Positions 2,754 to 63,428 of a stretch of DNA of 64,000 nt are shown in pieces. The position numbers were made by a program, and so were the translations under genes. This DNA is from Alphaproteobacteria bacterium (GTDB lineage Bacteria; Pseudomonadota; Alphaproteobacteria; RF32; CAG-239): assembly GCA_017484225.1 (NCBI GenBank), contig JAFUTN010000024.1, positions 1 through 64,000 of the forward strand, in the 5' to 3' direction. How positions within the stretch are numbered: position 1 is the first letter of the stretch; the number at the start of each line of letters is the position of its first letter. Under the pieces are notes generated by a model that was not told where the DNA came from, searched no databases, and worked only from the letters and a program-made list of their open reading frames with translations.

Positions 2754-4736
2754 ATGAACAAAGAATTTAAAATTGAAAGTCCTTTTCAACCATCGGGAGA
2801 CCAACCGCAGGCCATAAAGGAATTGTGCGAAGGAATTGAACGCGGCGAGCGCAATCAGGTTCTGCTCGGAGTTACCGGTTCCGGCAAAACTTTTACGATG
2901 GCAAAAATCATTGAACAATGCAAACGTCCGGCCCTTATTATGGAACCGAACAAAATTTTGGCAGCACAGCTTTACGCGGAAATGAAAGAATTTTTTCCGA
3001 ACAACTGCGTAGAATATTTTGTTTCTTACTATGATTATTATCAGCCGGAAGCATACATTCCCAAAACCGACACATATATTGAAAAAGATTCTGCCATCAA
3101 TGAACAAATTGACCGTATGCGTCACGGAGCAACACGTAACGTCCTAGAGGAAAGGGATGTAATCATTGTTGCTTCGGTTTCATGTATATATGGTCTGGGG
3201 AGCATGGAATCATATTCATCCATGGTTTTTCAAATTAAAGTCGGTGATATTGTAGATATTCATGAAATAAATCGCCAATTAACCGCCCTGCTTTACGAGC
3301 GTTGCAGTGTGAATTTTGTGCGTTCAACTTTTCGCGTTAACGGTGACACATTAGATATTTTTCCCGCTCACTATGAAGACCGCGCATGGCGTGTTTCTTT
3401 TTTTGGAGATGAAGTGGAAGAAATTTATGAATTTGATGTTTTGACCGGCAAAAAAACTCGCCAACTTGATGAAATTACCGTATATCCGGCAAATCACTAC
3501 GTCACACCGCGTCCGGCGCTTTCTCAAGCCATGACGCATATTAAAGAAGATTTAGCCTTACGTTTAGATGAATTTAAACGTGAAAACAAGTTGCTGGAGG
3601 CTCAACGTCTTGAGCAGCGGACACATTTTGACTTAGAGATGATGGACACTACCGGACACTGCAAGGGCATTGAGAATTATTCTCGTTATTTAACCGGACG
3701 CAATCCCGGAGAACCGCCGCCGACATTGTTTGAATATTTTCCGAAAAATGCTTTGCTGTTTATTGATGAAAGTCACATAGCGGTGCCGCAAATCGGAGCA
3801 ATGTATCGCGGCGATTTCAACCGCAAGTCCACTCTGGCACAATATGGTTTTCGCTTGCCGTCTTGTTTAGATAATCGTCCGCTCAAGTTTGAGGAATGGG
3901 ATAAAATGCGCCCGCAAACAATTTTTGTTTCGGCAACTCCGGGCGATTGGGAATTGGAACAAAGCAAGGGGGTATTTTCCGAACAGGTTATCCGCCCGAC
4001 CGGACTAACCGACCCGTTATGTATTGTTCGTCCGGTAGAAAATCAAATTGACGATTTAATGGAAGAATGCCGTGCCACCGCCAAAAAGGGTGAGCGTGTT
4101 TTAGTGACCACTTTAACAAAAAAAATGGCCGAAGATTTAACCGATTATTTACATGACAACGGCGTTAAAGTTCGTTATATGCACTCTGACATTGATACCT
4201 TGGAGCGCATTGAAATAATACGAGATTTACGCTTAGGCATTTTTGATGTTTTGGTCGGCATTAATCTTTTGCGAGAGGGTTTAGATATTCCGGAATGTTC
4301 GCTGGTGGCTATTTTAGATGCCGATAAAGAAGGATTTTTGCGTTCAACCCGTTCGCTGATACAAACAATCGGCAGAGCTGCGCGCAATGCCGAAGGCCGT
4401 GTTATTCTTTATGCGGATAAAATAACCGATTCCATCAAAACCGCCTTAGATGAAACCAACCGCCGTCGCAAAAAACAAACAGAATACAACATTGCAAACG
4501 GAATAACCCCGCAAACCATAAAAAAGAGTATTTCATCAACTTTAAAAGCCATGACGGAAACAGATTTCGTAAAAGACGATACTCAAGACGTAGAAAAAAT
4601 CAAAAACATTGATAAAAAAATTAAAGAATACACCAAATTGATGAAAGAAGCGGCTCAAAATCTGGAATTTGAGCAAGCTATGGTGTATCGCGATAAACTC
4701 AAAGAATTAGAAATTCTCGCGCTCAAAAACACTTAA
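2754..4736 (+). CDS. uvrB: Excinuclease ABC subunit B
   Basis: UvrB is the damage-verifying helicase-like subunit of nucleotide excision repair; it receives DNA from UvrA and recruits UvrC. The 660-residue protein has the normal length and domain order: Walker A GVTGSGKT at residues 39-46, the aromatic beta-hairpin region near residues 92-115 ([19 protein letters not shown]), helicase motifs including the DES box ([13 protein letters not shown]), the motif VI region ([14 protein letters not shown]), and a C-terminal UVR domain ([21 protein letters not shown]) that contacts UvrC. The ATG is 2 nt after the preceding stop, suggesting translational coupling. The assignment is secure. Confidence 0.97.
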
Positions 4737-4744
4737 TTATCTCC

Positions 4745-4773
4745 TTTACAATCCGCCAAAACTTTGTTAAATT
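4745..4773 (+). promoter_or_regulatory. Promoter of leader RNA A1 / LRR gene 1
   Basis: TTTACA (4745-4750) and TAAATT (4768-4773) are separated by exactly 17 nt. The predicted transcription start (about 4780) coincides with the first hairpin of the structured leader. The second type A leader (49.6 kb) has TTTACA with the same 17-nt spacing in the same relative position. Confidence 0.65.
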
Positions 4774-4779
4774 TAAACC

Positions 4780-4973
4780 GGAGTGCGGGATAAACGCACT
4801 TCAGGGCGTCAGAACCCTATATATCATCAGTCGCATAATATGCGGCTTTATCAGCGCTGGTGTTCGTATATTTTGTGCGGATGTCAGCCAAATAAGGCTA
4901 TGCCAAATAGGCTGAGCCGTTTGATGATATACGGTTTCTGAACATCCGCCCGTCTTTTTAAACGGGTTTTTTT
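4780..4973 (+). ncRNA. Structured leader RNA type A, copy 1, upstream of LRR gene 1
   Basis: A region of about 195 nt between a promoter and an LRR gene folds into defined helices. These are a 5' hairpin (4782-4787 with 4795-4800); an AGGG/CCCT hairpin in the conserved TTCAGGGCGT context; a stem GCGGATGT/ACATCCGC (4877-4884 with 4942-4949); an inner GGCT/AGCC (4896-4899 with 4915-4918); and a 10-bp long-range helix TATATCATCA/TGATGATATA (4820-4829 with 4922-4931) that crosses the stem, forming a pseudoknot. A terminator-like hairpin directly abuts the stem. The copy at 49.4-49.6 kb keeps every one of these helices with different bases in most of them. It could be a riboswitch-like attenuator or a separate small RNA. 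I do not recognise the class. Confidence 0.8.
4949..4973 (+). terminator. Terminator-like hairpin at the end of leader A1
   Basis: CCCGT (4949-4953) pairs with ACGGG (4962-4966) and is followed by seven T residues. It lies only 26 nt before the LRR gene start at 5000, with no room for another promoter, so the gene depends on read-through. Confidence 0.75.
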
Positions 4974-4999
4974 ATTAACGATAACAAAGGATGTTAAAA

Positions 5000-5833
5000 A
5001 TGAAACAACTGCTTAATCTTTTAATATTGACTTTTTGCTTTTCTAATCTTGCCAATGCCGAAATTGTCGGCACATGGACATGCGGTGATGATTGCACCGC
5101 AACTCTTGACGACAAAGGAAATTTTGTCATTTCAGGCAGCGGAAAAATGCGTGATTACACCAGAGAAGAACGAGATACCATTTTGCCTTGGAGAAATTAC
5201 CGCAGCCAGATAAAATCTATTGAAGTTCAGGGAATTTCGTATATAGGTTCCGACTCTTTATCTATGACCGGAGCAACAGAAATTAAAATAGATAACACCG
5301 TAACGGGTATTGGGCGTGCCGCACTGGAATTTAATCATTCTCTTACCTCTATTGAATTACCGGAATCTTTGACCAAACTAAATTATTCCGCTTATGCGTG
5401 GAATGAAAATCTCACCAAAATCATAATTCCCGACTCAATCACGAGTGTAGAATCTTTAAGCGTTGGAAGTTGGCCGGAAAAATTGCAAATAATATGCAAG
5501 GGAAGTAACTGCGATAACGTTAAAAAACTACTTAAAAACTATACCTATCTATCAAGCACTAACTCTGATACCATCCTCACTGCCGACTTGAGCAACAAAG
5601 TAATACTTGCCGAAGAACCCCAATGCACCGGAACAAAATATTACTGGACAGGAAAAAATTGCAACAACCGTCCGACAAACGGTGAAGGCATAGAATGTGC
5701 GGAAGGATACTATGTCGCATACCGCAATTACAATGAAGTATGCGAAAAAATAAAGCTTCGCTACACCATGCAAGAAGCGGATGAGGCTACTTCAGATGAC
5801 TTTGAAAACCGTATTGAGTGGATTTTTGAATAA
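5000..5833 (+). CDS. Secreted BspA-type leucine-rich-repeat protein 1
   Basis: This 277-residue protein starts with a signal peptide (MKQLLNLLILTFCFSNLANA, cleavage near residue 20). Next comes a cysteine-flanked N-terminal module (GTWTCGDDCTATLDD) and BspA-like LRR units of the LRR_5 type (IGSDSLSMTGATEIKIDNTV, LTSIELPESLTKL, LTKIIIPDSITSV). A short cysteine-rich segment follows, and the protein ends in a tail (EADEATSDDFEN, IEWIFE) shared with three other genes in the window. Such proteins are typically surface adhesins. The ATG at 5000 is preferred over the one at 4991 because AAAGGA lies 8 nt before it. It is preceded by leader RNA A1 and converges on virB11, with stops 1 nt apart. Confidence 0.85.
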   Translation: MKQLLNLLILTFCFSNLANAEIVGTWTCGDDCTATLDDKGNFVISGSGKMRDYTREERDTILPWRNYRSQIKSIEVQGISYIGSDSLSMTGATEIKIDNTVTGIGRAALEFNHSLTSIELPESLTKLNYSAYAWNENLTKIIIPDSITSVESLSVGSWPEKLQIICKGSNCDNVKKLLKNYTYLSSTNSDTILTADLSNKVILAEEPQCTGTKYYWTGKNCNNRPTNGEGIECAEGYYVAYRNYNEVCEKIKLRYTMQEADEATSDDFENRIEWIFE

Positions 5834-46849: not shown

Positions 46850-47083
46850 ACGGCAATTTTTGCCGAGAACCTGAAAAAGAGAGGTTCGGAGCTGTAGCAG
46901 GCTCATTATCCAGAGATACCAAACAGGTATCCGCTCAGGGTGCTTTTTTGGTTTTAAAATCCCCGCTTCGGTCGGGGAGATTATGGCGTATGTTCAAGCT
47001 TATTTTTAAGCTAAAGGTCATAATAGTCATTACTCTGGATATGATTTGCTAACTCCCCGCCGCCTTTTTCATGGCGGTTTTTT
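46850..47083 (+). ncRNA. Structured leader RNA type B, copy 1, upstream of LRR-family gene 2
   Basis: This region of about 235 nt has a 5' GGCAA/TTGCC hairpin, AACCT/AGGTT, GAGC/GCTC and GATACC/GGTATC hairpins, a CCCCG/CGGGG hairpin, an ATTATG/CATAAT stem (46980-46985 with 47019-47024), and a 7-bp stem CGGGGAG/CTCCCCG (46973-46979 with 47053-47059). Inside the last stem CTCTGGATA (47033-47041) pairs perfectly with TATCCAGAG (46907-46915) outside it, which makes a pseudoknot. The strand CGGGG can also pair in the upstream CCCCG hairpin, so two exclusive folds exist. All helices recur with changed bases in the copy at 62.3 kb. The RNA ends in a terminator-like hairpin before the gene. Confidence 0.8.
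47060..47083 (+). terminator. Terminator-like hairpin at the end of leader B1
   Basis: CCGCC (47060-47064) pairs with GGCGG (47073-47077), followed by six T residues. It abuts the CTCCCCG strand of the leader pseudoknot and ends 25 nt before the start codon of the next gene. Confidence 0.75.
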
Positions 47084-47107: not shown

Positions 47108-47884
47108 ATGATGATGAAAAAAATTATTTTATTGCCAAGTCTTGTTGTTATTTTCATTTTAAAATTTATTAATACATCAATGGCGGAGTGCCGATTTCCT
47201 CCGTGCAAAAAATTGGAATCGGTCGGCACCTGCGGTGAAGGTTGCACCTACACGTATGACCAATCTACACAAACTGTTTATATTTCTACCGCCGGCAACG
47301 ATTCAAAAATGGCGTATGGTGCTTTTCATCCTCAATACTATGAAAACAACTATTTGCCGTATCTCAACTATATTATTGACGGACCGATAAGTATCGGAGG
47401 AAATGCCTTCACGGCAAATGTTGAAACTATATCAGGAGCAAACGGAACCTTGATTTTAACCGGTATAAACCACCACGGTTTTGGTGATAATGCTACTCTG
47501 TCCGGCAATATTGTGATTCCGGCAAATGCAAGATTTGGTTCCATTGCTTTTCATGGTGTAACGCTGGCAGACGGTGCCAAAATATATTGTGCAGTGGAAA
47601 ACTGTGCGCAAAAAATGATTGATTCATGTAATGCTTATGGTGATGCTGATGGATACAGAACTCGCTACCTCAATGTGGTGCAAACCATTATTTCCGATGA
47701 AGACAAATTTGAACAAGCACCGGAGGGATGTGACTTTTGGTCAAGCGAAGGCTGTTCAAAATGCACAAATTCCAATTATTCATTGGAATACGGCTATTGT
47801 TACCGCAAACGCTACACCATACAGGAAGCGGATGCGGCAACATCTGATGACAATGAAAATATGATTGAGTGGATTTTTGAGTGA
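47108..47884 (+). CDS. Secreted BspA/LRR-family protein 2
   Basis: This 258-residue protein has a signal peptide (IILLPSLVVIFILKFINTSMA). Its N-terminal module (SVGTCGEGCTYTYDQST) parallels GTWTCGDDCTATLDD of LRR protein 1. The repeat region is less regular than in its relatives (SIGGNAFTANVETISGANG, TLSGNIVIPANARFGSIAF). A cysteine-rich stretch and the shared C-terminal tail (QEADAATSDDNEN, IEWIFE) close it. An AAGGGGG site precedes the ATG. It is preceded by leader RNA B1 and terminator-like hairpin. A surface adhesin-like role is inferred from the family. Confidence 0.8.
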   Translation: MMMKKIILLPSLVVIFILKFINTSMAECRFPPCKKLESVGTCGEGCTYTYDQSTQTVYISTAGNDSKMAYGAFHPQYYENNYLPYLNYIIDGPISIGGNAFTANVETISGANGTLILTGINHHGFGDNATLSGNIVIPANARFGSIAFHGVTLADGAKIYCAVENCAQKMIDSCNAYGDADGYRTRYLNVVQTIISDEDKFEQAPEGCDFWSSEGCSKCTNSNYSLEYGYCYRKRYTIQEADAATSDDNENMIEWIFE

Positions 47885-48601: not shown

Positions 48602-49387
48602 TTACTCAAAAATCCACTCAATCATATTTTCATTATCGTTACTTGTCGCAGCATCAGCTTCCGGCAAGGTGTAGCGGGTTTTGATTTCTCTGCAAATACC
48701 GAAATTATCGGCATAAAAATTATCATAGCAGTTTGAAACGCACCCTACTCCGCTTTGCAAATACAAATCTCCGCAACTGCCGCATGAACCTCCGTTACCG
48801 CATGATGAAATTGGAGTATTGTTGAATGCGGAGCCTGATACATTTGTAGAATCTTTTATTCCGGCATAAATTAATCCGGATGCCCCCAAAAAAGCCTGAA
48901 ATCCTATCGTTTCCACTTTCGGCATATCTACTCCGGATAAATTTCTGTCTCCCTGAAAAGCATCATGACCTACTGTTCTGACATTAGGCATTTCTATACT
49001 TTGCAAGCCGTAAGTGTATGCAAATGAACTTACGCCGACAGTTTCAACATCTTTCATTCCGCTGACCGTCTGCATTACATAAGCATTTTGGAAAGCATCT
49101 TGACCGATTTTCACAATATTATCACCTATAACCAAATTCTGAACTTGTCTTATACTGCTTTCCCACGGACGGTTTCCATCCGGACAACTATCATAACAAT
49201 AATAATCATCCATAACTACATTTTTTGCACCTTCTTTGGCATAAACCGTCATTATTCCGTTTTCATCAATTTTCCATAAACAAGTTTCGTCAGCATTACA
49301 AGTTCCTGATGATGGTTCAATGCCGGTTGCCGCATTAATTTGTAAACAAAAAATCATAAAGCATAGTGTAAATTTTTTGCATTTCAT
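48602..49387 (-). CDS. Secreted BspA-type leucine-rich-repeat protein 3
   Basis: This 261-residue protein is read from the ATG at 49387 (AAAGGGTG upstream). Signal peptide (FTLCFMIFCLQINAATG), an N-terminal module with a cysteine pair (SSGTCNADETCLWKIDENGI), then BspA-like repeats (IVKIGQDAFQNAYVMQTVSG, VETVGVSSFAYTYGLQSIEM, VRTVGHDAFQGDRNLSGVDM). A CGNGGSCGSCGD cysteine segment follows, and the protein ends in the shared tail (PEADAATSNDNEN, IEWIFE). It is preceded by leader RNA A2. Surface display and adhesion are typical for BspA-like proteins but are not shown here. Confidence 0.85.
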   Translation of the reverse strand: MKCKKFTLCFMIFCLQINAATGIEPSSGTCNADETCLWKIDENGIMTVYAKEGAKNVVMDDYYCYDSCPDGNRPWESSIRQVQNLVIGDNIVKIGQDAFQNAYVMQTVSGMKDVETVGVSSFAYTYGLQSIEMPNVRTVGHDAFQGDRNLSGVDMPKVETIGFQAFLGASGLIYAGIKDSTNVSGSAFNNTPISSCGNGGSCGSCGDLYLQSGVGCVSNCYDNFYADNFGICREIKTRYTLPEADAATSNDNENMIEWIFE

Positions 49388-49421: not shown

Positions 49422-49447
49422 AAAAAAAACCCGCTCAAAAAGACGGG
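49422..49447 (-). terminator. Terminator-like hairpin at the end of leader A2
   Basis: On the minus strand CCCGTCTTTTTGAGCGGG forms a hairpin followed by eight T residues. As in leader A1 it shares its first base with the 3' end of the ACATCCGC strand and lies about 35 nt before the start codon. Confidence 0.75.
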
Positions 49448-49628
49448 CGGATGTTGACAAACCGTTTAGTAAAAACATAAAAAACACGGCTCGGCGATTT
49501 CGTGCTACAGCCTTATGACACCGACATCCGCACATTTACGAAAATCGGCAAATATCACCATATAAATAGTGATAACGTTTTTACTAAAAAGGGTTGTCAC
49601 GCCCTGAAACGCGTTTTTTCGCGTTCCT
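49422..49628 (-). ncRNA. Structured leader RNA type A, copy 2, upstream of LRR gene 3
   Basis: This is the second copy of the leader at 4780-4973. On the minus strand it has the 5' hairpin AACGCG/CGCGTT (49620-49625 with 49608-49613), the conserved TTTCAGGGCGT segment, the stem GCGGATGT/ACATCCGC (49531-49524 with 49454-49447), and a 12-bp long-range helix TTTAGTAAAAAC/GTTTTTACTAAA (49588-49577 with 49476-49465). Copy A1 pairs TATATCATCA with TGATGATATA at the same place. The helix is preserved while its sequence is almost fully different, which is strong covariation evidence for the pseudoknot. Conserved single-stranded bases include ATAAGGCT and GAGCCGT. Confidence 0.8.
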
Positions 49629-49632
49629 GTTA

Positions 49633-62236: not shown

Positions 62237-62268
62237 AACCGCTTTAATTTTAAGGCGGTTTTATTTTT
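62237..62268 (+). terminator. Rho-independent terminator after fabZ
   Basis: AACCGC pairs with GCGGTT around an AT-rich loop and is followed by TTATTTTT. It closes the pyrH-fabZ cluster and isolates the LRR cassette downstream. Confidence 0.8.
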
Positions 62269-62283
62269 ATGCTTACTTCTTTC

Positions 62284-62312
62284 TTTACATCCGAATATTG
62301 TTTTGATAACAT
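62284..62312 (+). promoter_or_regulatory. Promoter of leader RNA B2 / LRR gene 4
   Basis: TTTACA (62284-62289), a 17-nt spacer and TAACAT (62307-62312). The -35 hexamer matches both type A leaders, and transcription would start at the first hairpin of the leader. Confidence 0.6.
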
Positions 62313-62318
62313 ATTTTC

Positions 62319-62555
62319 AAGGCAAAATTTTGCCCAGAACCTGTAAAAGAGAGGTTCGGAGCTGTCGAAAGCTCATATCACAAGATACCGAAAGGTATCC
62401 TTTTCAGGATGCTTTTTTGGTATTAACTCTTCCCCACTATGGTGGGGAGCCCAATGTATATGTTCAAGTTTTATAAACTAAAAACATTGGGAGTCATTGC
62501 TTGTGGTATGATTTTCGAACTCCCCGCCGCCTCTTGTAAAGGCGGTTATTTTTTT
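62319..62555 (+). ncRNA. Structured leader RNA type B, copy 2, upstream of LRR gene 4
   Basis: This is the second copy of the leader at 46850-47083. It has the GGCAAAATTTTGCC hairpin, AACCT/AGGTT, GAGCT/AGCTC, GATACC/GGTATC and TCCCCAC/GTGGGGA hairpins, a CCAATGT/ACATTGG stem (62451-62457 with 62484-62490; ATTATG/CATAAT in B1), and GGGGAG/CTCCCC (62444-62449 with 62520-62525). The crossing helix is TCATATCACAAG with CTTGTGGTATGA (62373-62384 with 62500-62511, one G-U pair), where B1 pairs TATCCAGAG with CTCTGGATA. Shared unpaired motifs include CAGGRTGCTTTTTTGG, TATGTTCAAG and GTCATT. Confidence 0.8.
62527..62555 (+). terminator. Terminator-like hairpin at the end of leader B2
   Basis: CCGCC (62527-62531) pairs with GGCGG (62541-62545), followed by TTATTTTTTT. 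The LRR gene starts 22 nt later, with AGGAAGGA between, so there is no space for a separate promoter. Confidence 0.75.
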
Positions 62556-62576
62556 AATTAAGGAAGGAAAAAAGTG

Positions 62577-63428
62577 ATGAAAAATTTTATTTTAGGAATT
62601 GCCGCAACAATTATGTGCTGTGTTTTTGAAGCTAAGGCAGCAAACATCAGTTGCATTAACGGCTTGCGAGAAGACAAAACAACCACTTGCGATAAATGCG
62701 GAGATAATTGTGATTGGGAAATTAAAGACGGTGTTTTGAAAGTAAGCGGGAGCGGAAGTATGTATGATTACGACTACTTAACTTCAAATGATAAACCATG
62801 GAGAGGATATGAAGCAGATGTAAATCACCTTACAATAGAAGGAATCAGCAACATTGGTTCATGTGCCTTTTCATCTATTCGCAATTTATCTTCTGCAGAA
62901 ATGGATAACTCTGTTACAGTAGTTAGAAATGATGCTTTTGCTTGGACAGGACTATCATCCGTAAAAATGTCGGATTCTGTCAGTTCTTTGGGTTATTCGG
63001 CTTTCAGAGGGACACACCTAACAGAAATTGAATTGCCGAGCGGGGTGATTATAGGACAAGATGCTCTCGGCGAACGGCAAATTTCGGTAATTTGCAAAGG
63101 CAGCAGTGAAGACTGCGAACAATTCAGAACAGCTTTGGATGGTTATGTATATACGGCAACAAATGACACTTATGCCGCCACACCGATGAGTCTCGGCGGA
63201 AAAATGAAATTAGCTCAAGAGAGGCAATGTAATTCTGAAATTTTTTACTGGACCGGAGAATTTTGCCATAATCGTCCGACAGACGGCAGCATTATTGATT
63301 GTGCCGAAGGATATTTTGCCAACACCCGAGATTTATGCGAAAAGATAAAACTTCGCTATACTCTGCCGGAAGCAGATGCGGCAACTTCTGATGACTTTGA
63401 AAATATGATTGAGTGGATTTTTGAGTAA
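62577..63428 (+). CDS. Secreted BspA-type leucine-rich-repeat protein 4
   Basis: This 283-residue protein is read from the ATG at 62577 (AGGAAGGA upstream; a GTG codon directly before it is an alternative). Signal peptide (FILGIAATIMCCVFEAKA), an N-terminal cysteine module (TTCDKCGDNCDWEIKDGVL) like those of the other family members, and BspA repeats (SNIGSCAFSSIRNLSSAEM, VTVVRNDAFAWTGLSSVKM, VSSLGYSAFRGTHLTEIEL). A cysteine-rich segment (RQCNSEIFYWTGEFCHNRPT) near-identical in plan to LRR protein 1 and the tail (PEADAATSDDFEN, IEWIFE) follow. Preceded by leader RNA B2. Confidence 0.85.
   Translation: MKNFILGIAATIMCCVFEAKAANISCINGLREDKTTTCDKCGDNCDWEIKDGVLKVSGSGSMYDYDYLTSNDKPWRGYEADVNHLTIEGISNIGSCAFSSIRNLSSAEMDNSVTVVRNDAFAWTGLSSVKMSDSVSSLGYSAFRGTHLTEIELPSGVIIGQDALGERQISVICKGSSEDCEQFRTALDGYVYTATNDTYAATPMSLGGKMKLAQERQCNSEIFYWTGEFCHNRPTDGSIIDCAEGYFANTRDLCEKIKLRYTLPEADAATSDDFENMIEWIFE

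Follow-up and report, generated by a model that had tools for sequence, protein, structure and literature searches.

The leaders in front of secreted-protein genes in this alphaproteobacterial genome are best read, with a probability of about 0.6, as C4-type antisense modules, each comprising an a1/b1 segment, a C4-like RNA of ~73-85 nt with a′ and b′, a terminator-like hairpin, and a ribosome site. Comparison of the copies shows that the predicted long-range pairings a1:a′ and b1:b′ are conserved as pairings while their sequences change. The window analyzed here, a 64,000-nucleotide stretch of contig JAFUTN010000024.1, contains four such leaders, two of type A and two of type B.

Leader architecture in the window

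A sequence-only reading of the window had described two copies on opposite strands that share TTTACA with a 17-nt spacer, a 5′ hairpin, the conserved segment TTCAGGGCGT, an 8-bp stem GCGGATGT/ACATCCGC, and a terminator-like hairpin. All of these parts are in place in both copies, here called A1 and A2. The tie it drew to secreted LRR genes also holds, as LRR_5 proteins are encoded behind both A copies, and its proposal that the gene is expressed by read-through past the terminator-like hairpin is likewise supported. The features are listed below, with bit scores from covariance models of type A (R1) and type B (R2).

4745-4773, + strand: promoter-like site, as read from the sequence (TTTACA 4745-4750, spacer 17 nt, TAAATT 4768-4773)
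4782-4800, + strand: 5′ hairpin P1 (AGTGCG 4782-4787 / CGCACT 4795-4800)
4804-4817, + strand: a1 hairpin P2 (GGG 4804-4806 / CCC 4815-4817), with a1 as the loop segment TCAGAA 4809-4814
4820-4830, + strand: b1 strand TATATCATCAG, 5′ side of the long-range helix, partner of b′
4829-4847, + strand: hairpin P4, which covaries
4856-4888, + strand: helix P5 (4856-4866 / 4878-4888), which competes with the 8-bp stem
4877-4949, + strand: C4-like RNA, 73 nt (P7 4877-4884/4942-4949, P6 4885-4889/4910-4914, P8 4917-4919/4932-4934)
4921-4931, + strand: b′, inside the P8 loop, partner of b1
4936-4941, + strand: a′ (TTCTGA), partner of a1
4949-4973, + strand: terminator-like hairpin CCCGT/ACGGG with a T run, from sequence
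4989-4995, + strand: Shine-Dalgarno region GGATGTT, complementary to AACATCC 4941-4947
5000-5833, + strand: secreted LRR_5 protein with the common C-terminal tail, ATG at 5000
46875-47062, + strand: type-B C4-like leader, preceding the gene at 47108-47884 (R2, 180.1 bits)
48602-49387, - strand: tail-bearing secreted LRR_5 protein, encoded downstream of copy A2
49446-49632, - strand: type-A leader copy A2 (R1, 134.7 bits), C4-like part 49531-49447
62345-62529, + strand: type-B C4-like leader, preceding an LRR_5 gene ending at 63428 (R2, 169.2 bits)
5756-5830 (+), 48605-48676 (-), 47810-47881 (+), 63351-63425 (+): sites of the tail in the window, with 81 more genome-wide

A second ATG is open to the A1 gene at 4991, within GGATG. 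The crossing helix lies at 4820-4829/4922-4931 in copy A1 and at 49577-49588/49465-49476 in copy A2. Across this genome, TTTACA stands at a constant distance 5′ of 51/56 type-A copies, and other copies also have the terminator-like hairpin at the equivalent position. The type-A a1 corresponds in position to the a1 of phage P1. Type B has a distinct core sequence with the identical a1/b1/a′/b′ order: in the leader at 46875-47062, a1 is GTAGCAG with a′ TGCT, and b1 is TATCCAGAG with b′ CTCTGGATA. Both a1:a′ and b1:b′ are present in 16/16 type-B copies.

Long-range pairings and alternative folds

Our alignment holds 34 copies, 24 from this genome and 10 from relatives. The b1:b′ helix, 11 bp long on average, is present in all 34 in 33 sequence versions, and the pairing of each b1 with its own b′ exceeds all 20,000 permutations. 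This is the crossing helix that the sequence-only reading described as kept despite its replaced sequence. That reading did not include the a1:a′ pairing or helix P5, nor did it note that the Shine-Dalgarno region can pair with the 8-bp stem through the latter's 3′ strand. The a1:a′ pairing joins the NNN of an AGGG..CCCT loop to the NNN before AACATCC; it is strictly Watson-Crick in 34/34 copies, with 10 triplets, and in 97/97 parsed copies of an enlarged set. Both long-range pairings are kept in all 97 type-A copies parsed, with helix sequences that mostly differ. The claimed covariation of the 5′ hairpin is borne out by both-sided changes in 5/6 base pairs of P1, and the claim that RNA structure is under selection agrees with pair counts against shuffles and slides, which support P1, P4, P6, P8, and a1:a′. 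The genome has 21-24 matches to the core pattern, 21 of them in the form TTCAGGGCGTN{2,6}CCCT, and the reversed control has none; recurrence of the type-A element is far above chance.

The crossing helix is real, but a static pseudoknot, as originally proposed, fits less well than two alternative nested folds. P5 and P6/P7 use common bases, and both covary: GCGGATGTC can form P5 with a strand 5′ of it or can join P7/P6, and alignment column 138 partners column 100 (P5) or column 174 (P6), with all three co-varying. At the level of sequence, these patterns show that P5 and P6/P7 are alternative pairings of identical bases. It is also sterically unlikely that an 11-bp b1:b′ helix fills almost the entire loop of the 3-bp hairpin P8; since P8 itself covaries and b1:b′ occupies nearly its whole loop, the two are probably alternatives. 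Given this clash and the competition between P5 and P6/P7, the "pseudoknot" is better read as a closed precursor (a1:a′, b1:b′, P5, Shine-Dalgarno:AACATCC) that alternates with an open C4 fold.

Folding predictions, made with one program that is unable to score pseudoknots, place the closed form (a1:a′, b1:b′, P5) below the P7-forced fold by a mean of 11.8 kcal/mol in this genome and 18.2 kcal/mol in relatives, and it dominates pseudoknot-free folding of the whole leader. For the C4-like fragment in isolation, the prediction is a three-stem fold, with a mean P7 stem probability of 1.0 and values > 0.5 for 86/86 fragments. We rejected a P5-like hairpin as a family-wide trait: 29 gamma loci are no better than shuffled sequences in this respect, and P5 is therefore claimed for type A alone.

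The ribosome site would be drawn into these folds through its complementarity to the C4 stem. GGRTGTT precedes the start codon in 40/54 copies in this genome (39 GGATGTT, 1 GGGTGTT), and GGATGTT is complementary to AACATCC on the 3′ side of the 8-bp (C4) stem; copy A1 is predicted to fold with GGATGT paired to ACATCC. GGATGTT is missing from copy A2 and 13 other copies. The motif was seen in none of 31 other window genes, though the Fisher value for this enrichment is too strong because duplicated leader copies are non-independent. Genus g183 has AACACCC in the stem and GGGTGTT at the ribosome site, a compensatory change found in 7/7 cases. Together, these sequences show that the Shine-Dalgarno region matches the 3′ strand of the predicted C4 stem and that compensatory change preserves the match in a further genus. 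In relatives, the base after the motif also fits a′ in 23/31 cases against 15.9 expected (0/20,000 permutations as high); in this genome, the base following GGATGTT does not fit a′. Address-specific a2/b2 around the ribosome site is weak or absent in the alpha set (P about 0.04-0.05).

These features are consistent with the following scheme. By default, the transcript would fold into the closed precursor (a1:a′, b1:b′, P5), leaving AACATCC free and the Shine-Dalgarno site covered; with AACATCC over that site, the gene would be off. Formation of the C4 stem instead would free the ribosome site. The C4-like RNA might be excised, by RNase P as in phage C4, or terminated, giving an RNA with exposed a′/b′. 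Such a freed RNA would pair best with the a1/b1 segments of transcripts bearing its own address, so that each gene would mainly answer its own antisense RNA. The structural claims come from comparison of the copies; release of the RNA and its action in trans are inferred.

Copy number, downstream proteins and addresses

As the sequence-only reading had suggested, a covariance model was built and related genomes were searched. R1 finds 56 type-A copies in the 1.48-Mb genome (54 above 90 bits and 2 weak) and at least one in 83/101 sampled family genomes. Three genomes of another genus have at least 19-25 type-A copies, and 22/289 genomes sampled across the class carry type A. R2 finds about 28 type-B copies in the genome, bringing types A and B to about 85 related leaders. 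The "type A" of the earlier reading thus has at least one sister type. Relatives that carry the element and have a name are mostly MAGs of uncultured Alphaproteobacteria, and their titles place several in animal guts.

A viral origin, considered through the short core pattern, was rejected: among the matches listed, no IMG/VR locus has the remaining parts of the element. A stricter 3′ pattern gave 0 matches against IMG/VR. Core-pattern matches in Oscillibacter, Clostridiales, Homoserinimonas, and Telluria contigs look like chance.

Several relatives have unusual arrangements. One has tandem leaders at 1564-1737 and 1867-2047 (L308), another a lone C4-like part beside a full leader (L248, 1743-1831), and a third a leader without the entire P8/b′ segment that keeps b1 and the outer stem (L053, 6610-6702). 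On three contigs of one MAG (L054, L060, L064), the leader breaks off identically in the b′ loop, with GAGCCGTTTTAGA followed by CCTAAAATATCC, perhaps through misassembly at a repeat or through an insertion. Two loci (L227, L233) have intact leaders and broken genes, one gene having an early stop and the other continuing, past its first residues, in a short, unrelated-looking frame.

A hydrophobic N-terminus is encoded by 55/56 type-A downstream genes (by simple count, with no signal-peptide program). LRR_5 matches account for 46/95 downstream proteins; lipoprotein-like and pilin-like proteins, an outer-membrane barrel, and envelope-type enzymes are among the others. A C-terminal tail of ~25 residues, like RYTLPEADEATSNDNENMIEWIFE, ends 51/55 complete type-A downstream proteins in this genome and is found in 85 otherwise varied secreted proteins genome-wide. 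A leader stands before 80/85 tail genes (53 type A, 27 type B), most tail genes that lack a type-A leader having one of type B. None of the 37 complete downstream proteins from relatives has the tail, which is possibly a sorting signal.

The combination of b′ and a1 is distinct in all 53 parsed copies. Among 13 copy pairs with a common b helix, 0 also share a1, compared with ~2.1 expected if random, though these pairs are not independent; selection for unique addresses is suggestive only. On a bolder reading, the ~85 leaders would act together as a network of addressed antisense RNAs that chooses which secreted proteins of a large paralogous family are made at any one time, with duplicate addresses selected against; this seems to us unlikely. 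If it were true, the host would have a surface-diversification system made from C4-type antisense RNAs.

Kinship to known RNAs and rival explanations

In a permissive Rfam search, the 3′ half of copy A1 gives a full-length, sub-threshold match to sRNA-Xcc1 (RF02221) at 4875-4959, with 29.4 bits. Sub-threshold matches are also found in three relatives and in type B, including the leader at 62345-62529 (E 0.011). Across the 1.48-Mb genome there are 7 sRNA-Xcc1 matches at E<=0.001, all on type-A leaders, the best with 35.6 bits; the cut-off of 53 bits is reached by neither window nor genome loci. Among Pseudomonadota, 51/299 genomes have sRNA-Xcc1 matches. By this sequence similarity, the 3′ part of type A appears to be a distant relative of sRNA-Xcc1. 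C4, c4-2, and c4-a1b1 have no match at cut-off in the window, and C4 (RF01695) has none listed at 4700-5010 up to E 10, nor at 62250-62600 up to E 1. Copies A1 and A2 match no Rfam family at its cut-off. The Rfam 15 riboswitch/ribozyme classes likewise have no match in the window at curated cut-off, and the sequence-only reading could not match the element to one either; the leaders are nevertheless of a known kind, that of the phage P1/P7 c4 module. A likeness of GAGCCGU..ACGGUUU to group II domain V was dropped, as it is lost in relatives (by eye).

At the best other loci, sRNA-Xcc1 has an a1 hairpin and b1 upstream, and many loci have a third a/b copy at the ribosome site of the next gene, with both pairings exceeding every permutation. 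This a2/b2 copy around the ribosome site is plain in many gamma loci. Genes beside those loci include antirepressor-like and SymE-like proteins (by eye on translations). These data suggest that sRNA-Xcc1, although catalogued as an sRNA in its own right, forms the 3′ end portion of a longer leader of the a1/b1-C4 type, which would make the gene immediately downstream its first suspected target. sRNA-Xcc1 has been reported as an abundant discrete RNA of 88 nt (PMC2996969) and lies upstream of symE in integron cassettes (PMC12444791). C4 is a processed RNA whose 5′ end is made in phage by RNase P and which represses in trans, b′ covering the ribosome site and a′ conferring specificity; read coverage suggests that the C4-like RNAs of A. 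baumannii are processed too (PMC5320573). In the open-access literature, one paper names both C4 and sRNA-Xcc1, and we saw no equating of the two in it. The phage P1 record annotates a1, b1, C4, a2, b2, and icd. By eye, P5-like hairpins can be drawn in type B (TCCCC/GGGGA) and over 10 bp in phage P1, where the upstream CGTTACGCCC could pair with the C4 stem start GGGCGTGATG (L315, AF234172 48080-48900).

The same pairings could instead belong to a purely cis-acting attenuator, whose closed/open switch acts on its own mRNA alone, controlling read-through and the Shine-Dalgarno site there, with no action in trans. A single transcript contains every required pairing, folding strongly favors the precursor form, and the ribosome sites here carry the common GGATGTT instead of address-specific a2/b2. 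Such an attenuator would, however, leave unexplained why b′ should occupy a hairpin loop in a C4 fold that is stable on its own and whose P8 covaries, and why the leaders are akin to RNAs known as discrete species; we regard it as somewhat unlikely. Two exclusive covarying conformations, conserved unpaired positions, an abutting terminator-like hairpin, and many copies in a single genome would also fit a riboswitch, with a small-molecule ligand tipping the balance between the folds on binding to the conserved core (CGT/AA in the a1 loop, AATAAGG in P6). We consider this quite improbable given the kinship to C4/sRNA-Xcc1, the mostly address-like and variable pairing of each copy, and the lack of any match to Rfam riboswitches at cut-off.

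The leaders might also be passengers of a DNA cassette, a 5′ unit of promoter, leader, and signal peptide swapped between paralogues by recombination, with the RNA pairings secondary. A common 5′ end and C-terminal tail do flank varied middles, integron cassettes carry sRNA-Xcc1 (PMC12444791), and in the first hairpin, copies that share b resemble each other no more than copies do on average, which would fit an exchange. Against this, the promoter distance and the orientation before the start codon are constant, P5 contains G-U pairs, and the stem changes together with the ribosome site; these features favor an RNA-level function, and we judge the cassette very improbable.

We thus prefer the C4-type antisense module. 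C4-type antisense RNA is already known from phage immunity and from Acinetobacter, there with targets unassigned; what this genome adds is expansion on a chromosome, an association with genes for secreted proteins, and an anti-Shine-Dalgarno role for a strand of the C4 stem. The putative module is carried by most of one repertoire of secreted proteins, nearly every copy with its own address, offering a testable case of one RNA design giving rise to dozens of insulated regulators in a small genome.

By sequence and predicted pairing, the leaders follow the C4-type antisense design, yet by cut-offs they lie outside Rfam C4 and sRNA-Xcc1. Like phage P1/P7 C4 with c4-a1b1 (RF01695, RF03163; clan CL00128), they begin with a 5′ hairpin, followed by a second hairpin with a1 in its loop, by b1 and then by C4, a three-stem RNA (~77 nt in the phages) whose third loop contains b′ and whose closing strand is preceded by a linker containing a′, and the precursor lies 5′ of the controlled gene. 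In contrast to the phage module, they score below the Rfam cut-off, are chromosomal, occur in dozens of copies, precede secreted-protein genes instead of an antirepressor operon, and have a terminator-like hairpin after the C4 part; address-specific a2/b2 is mostly missing, and the ribosome site pairs with the C4 stem strand. With sRNA-Xcc1 (RF02221), they share the full-length alignment of the 3′ half, in which both the P6 internal loop AATA..GAATAA and the hairpin CCGU..ACGG are included, whereas the P7 sequence and the ribosome-site pairing differ. The Group 1 C4-like sRNAs of Acinetobacter baumannii are similarly numerous within a genome and vary mainly in the specificity loop (PMC5320573), but have no targets assigned, whereas nearly all copies here adjoin one gene family and keep a1/b1.
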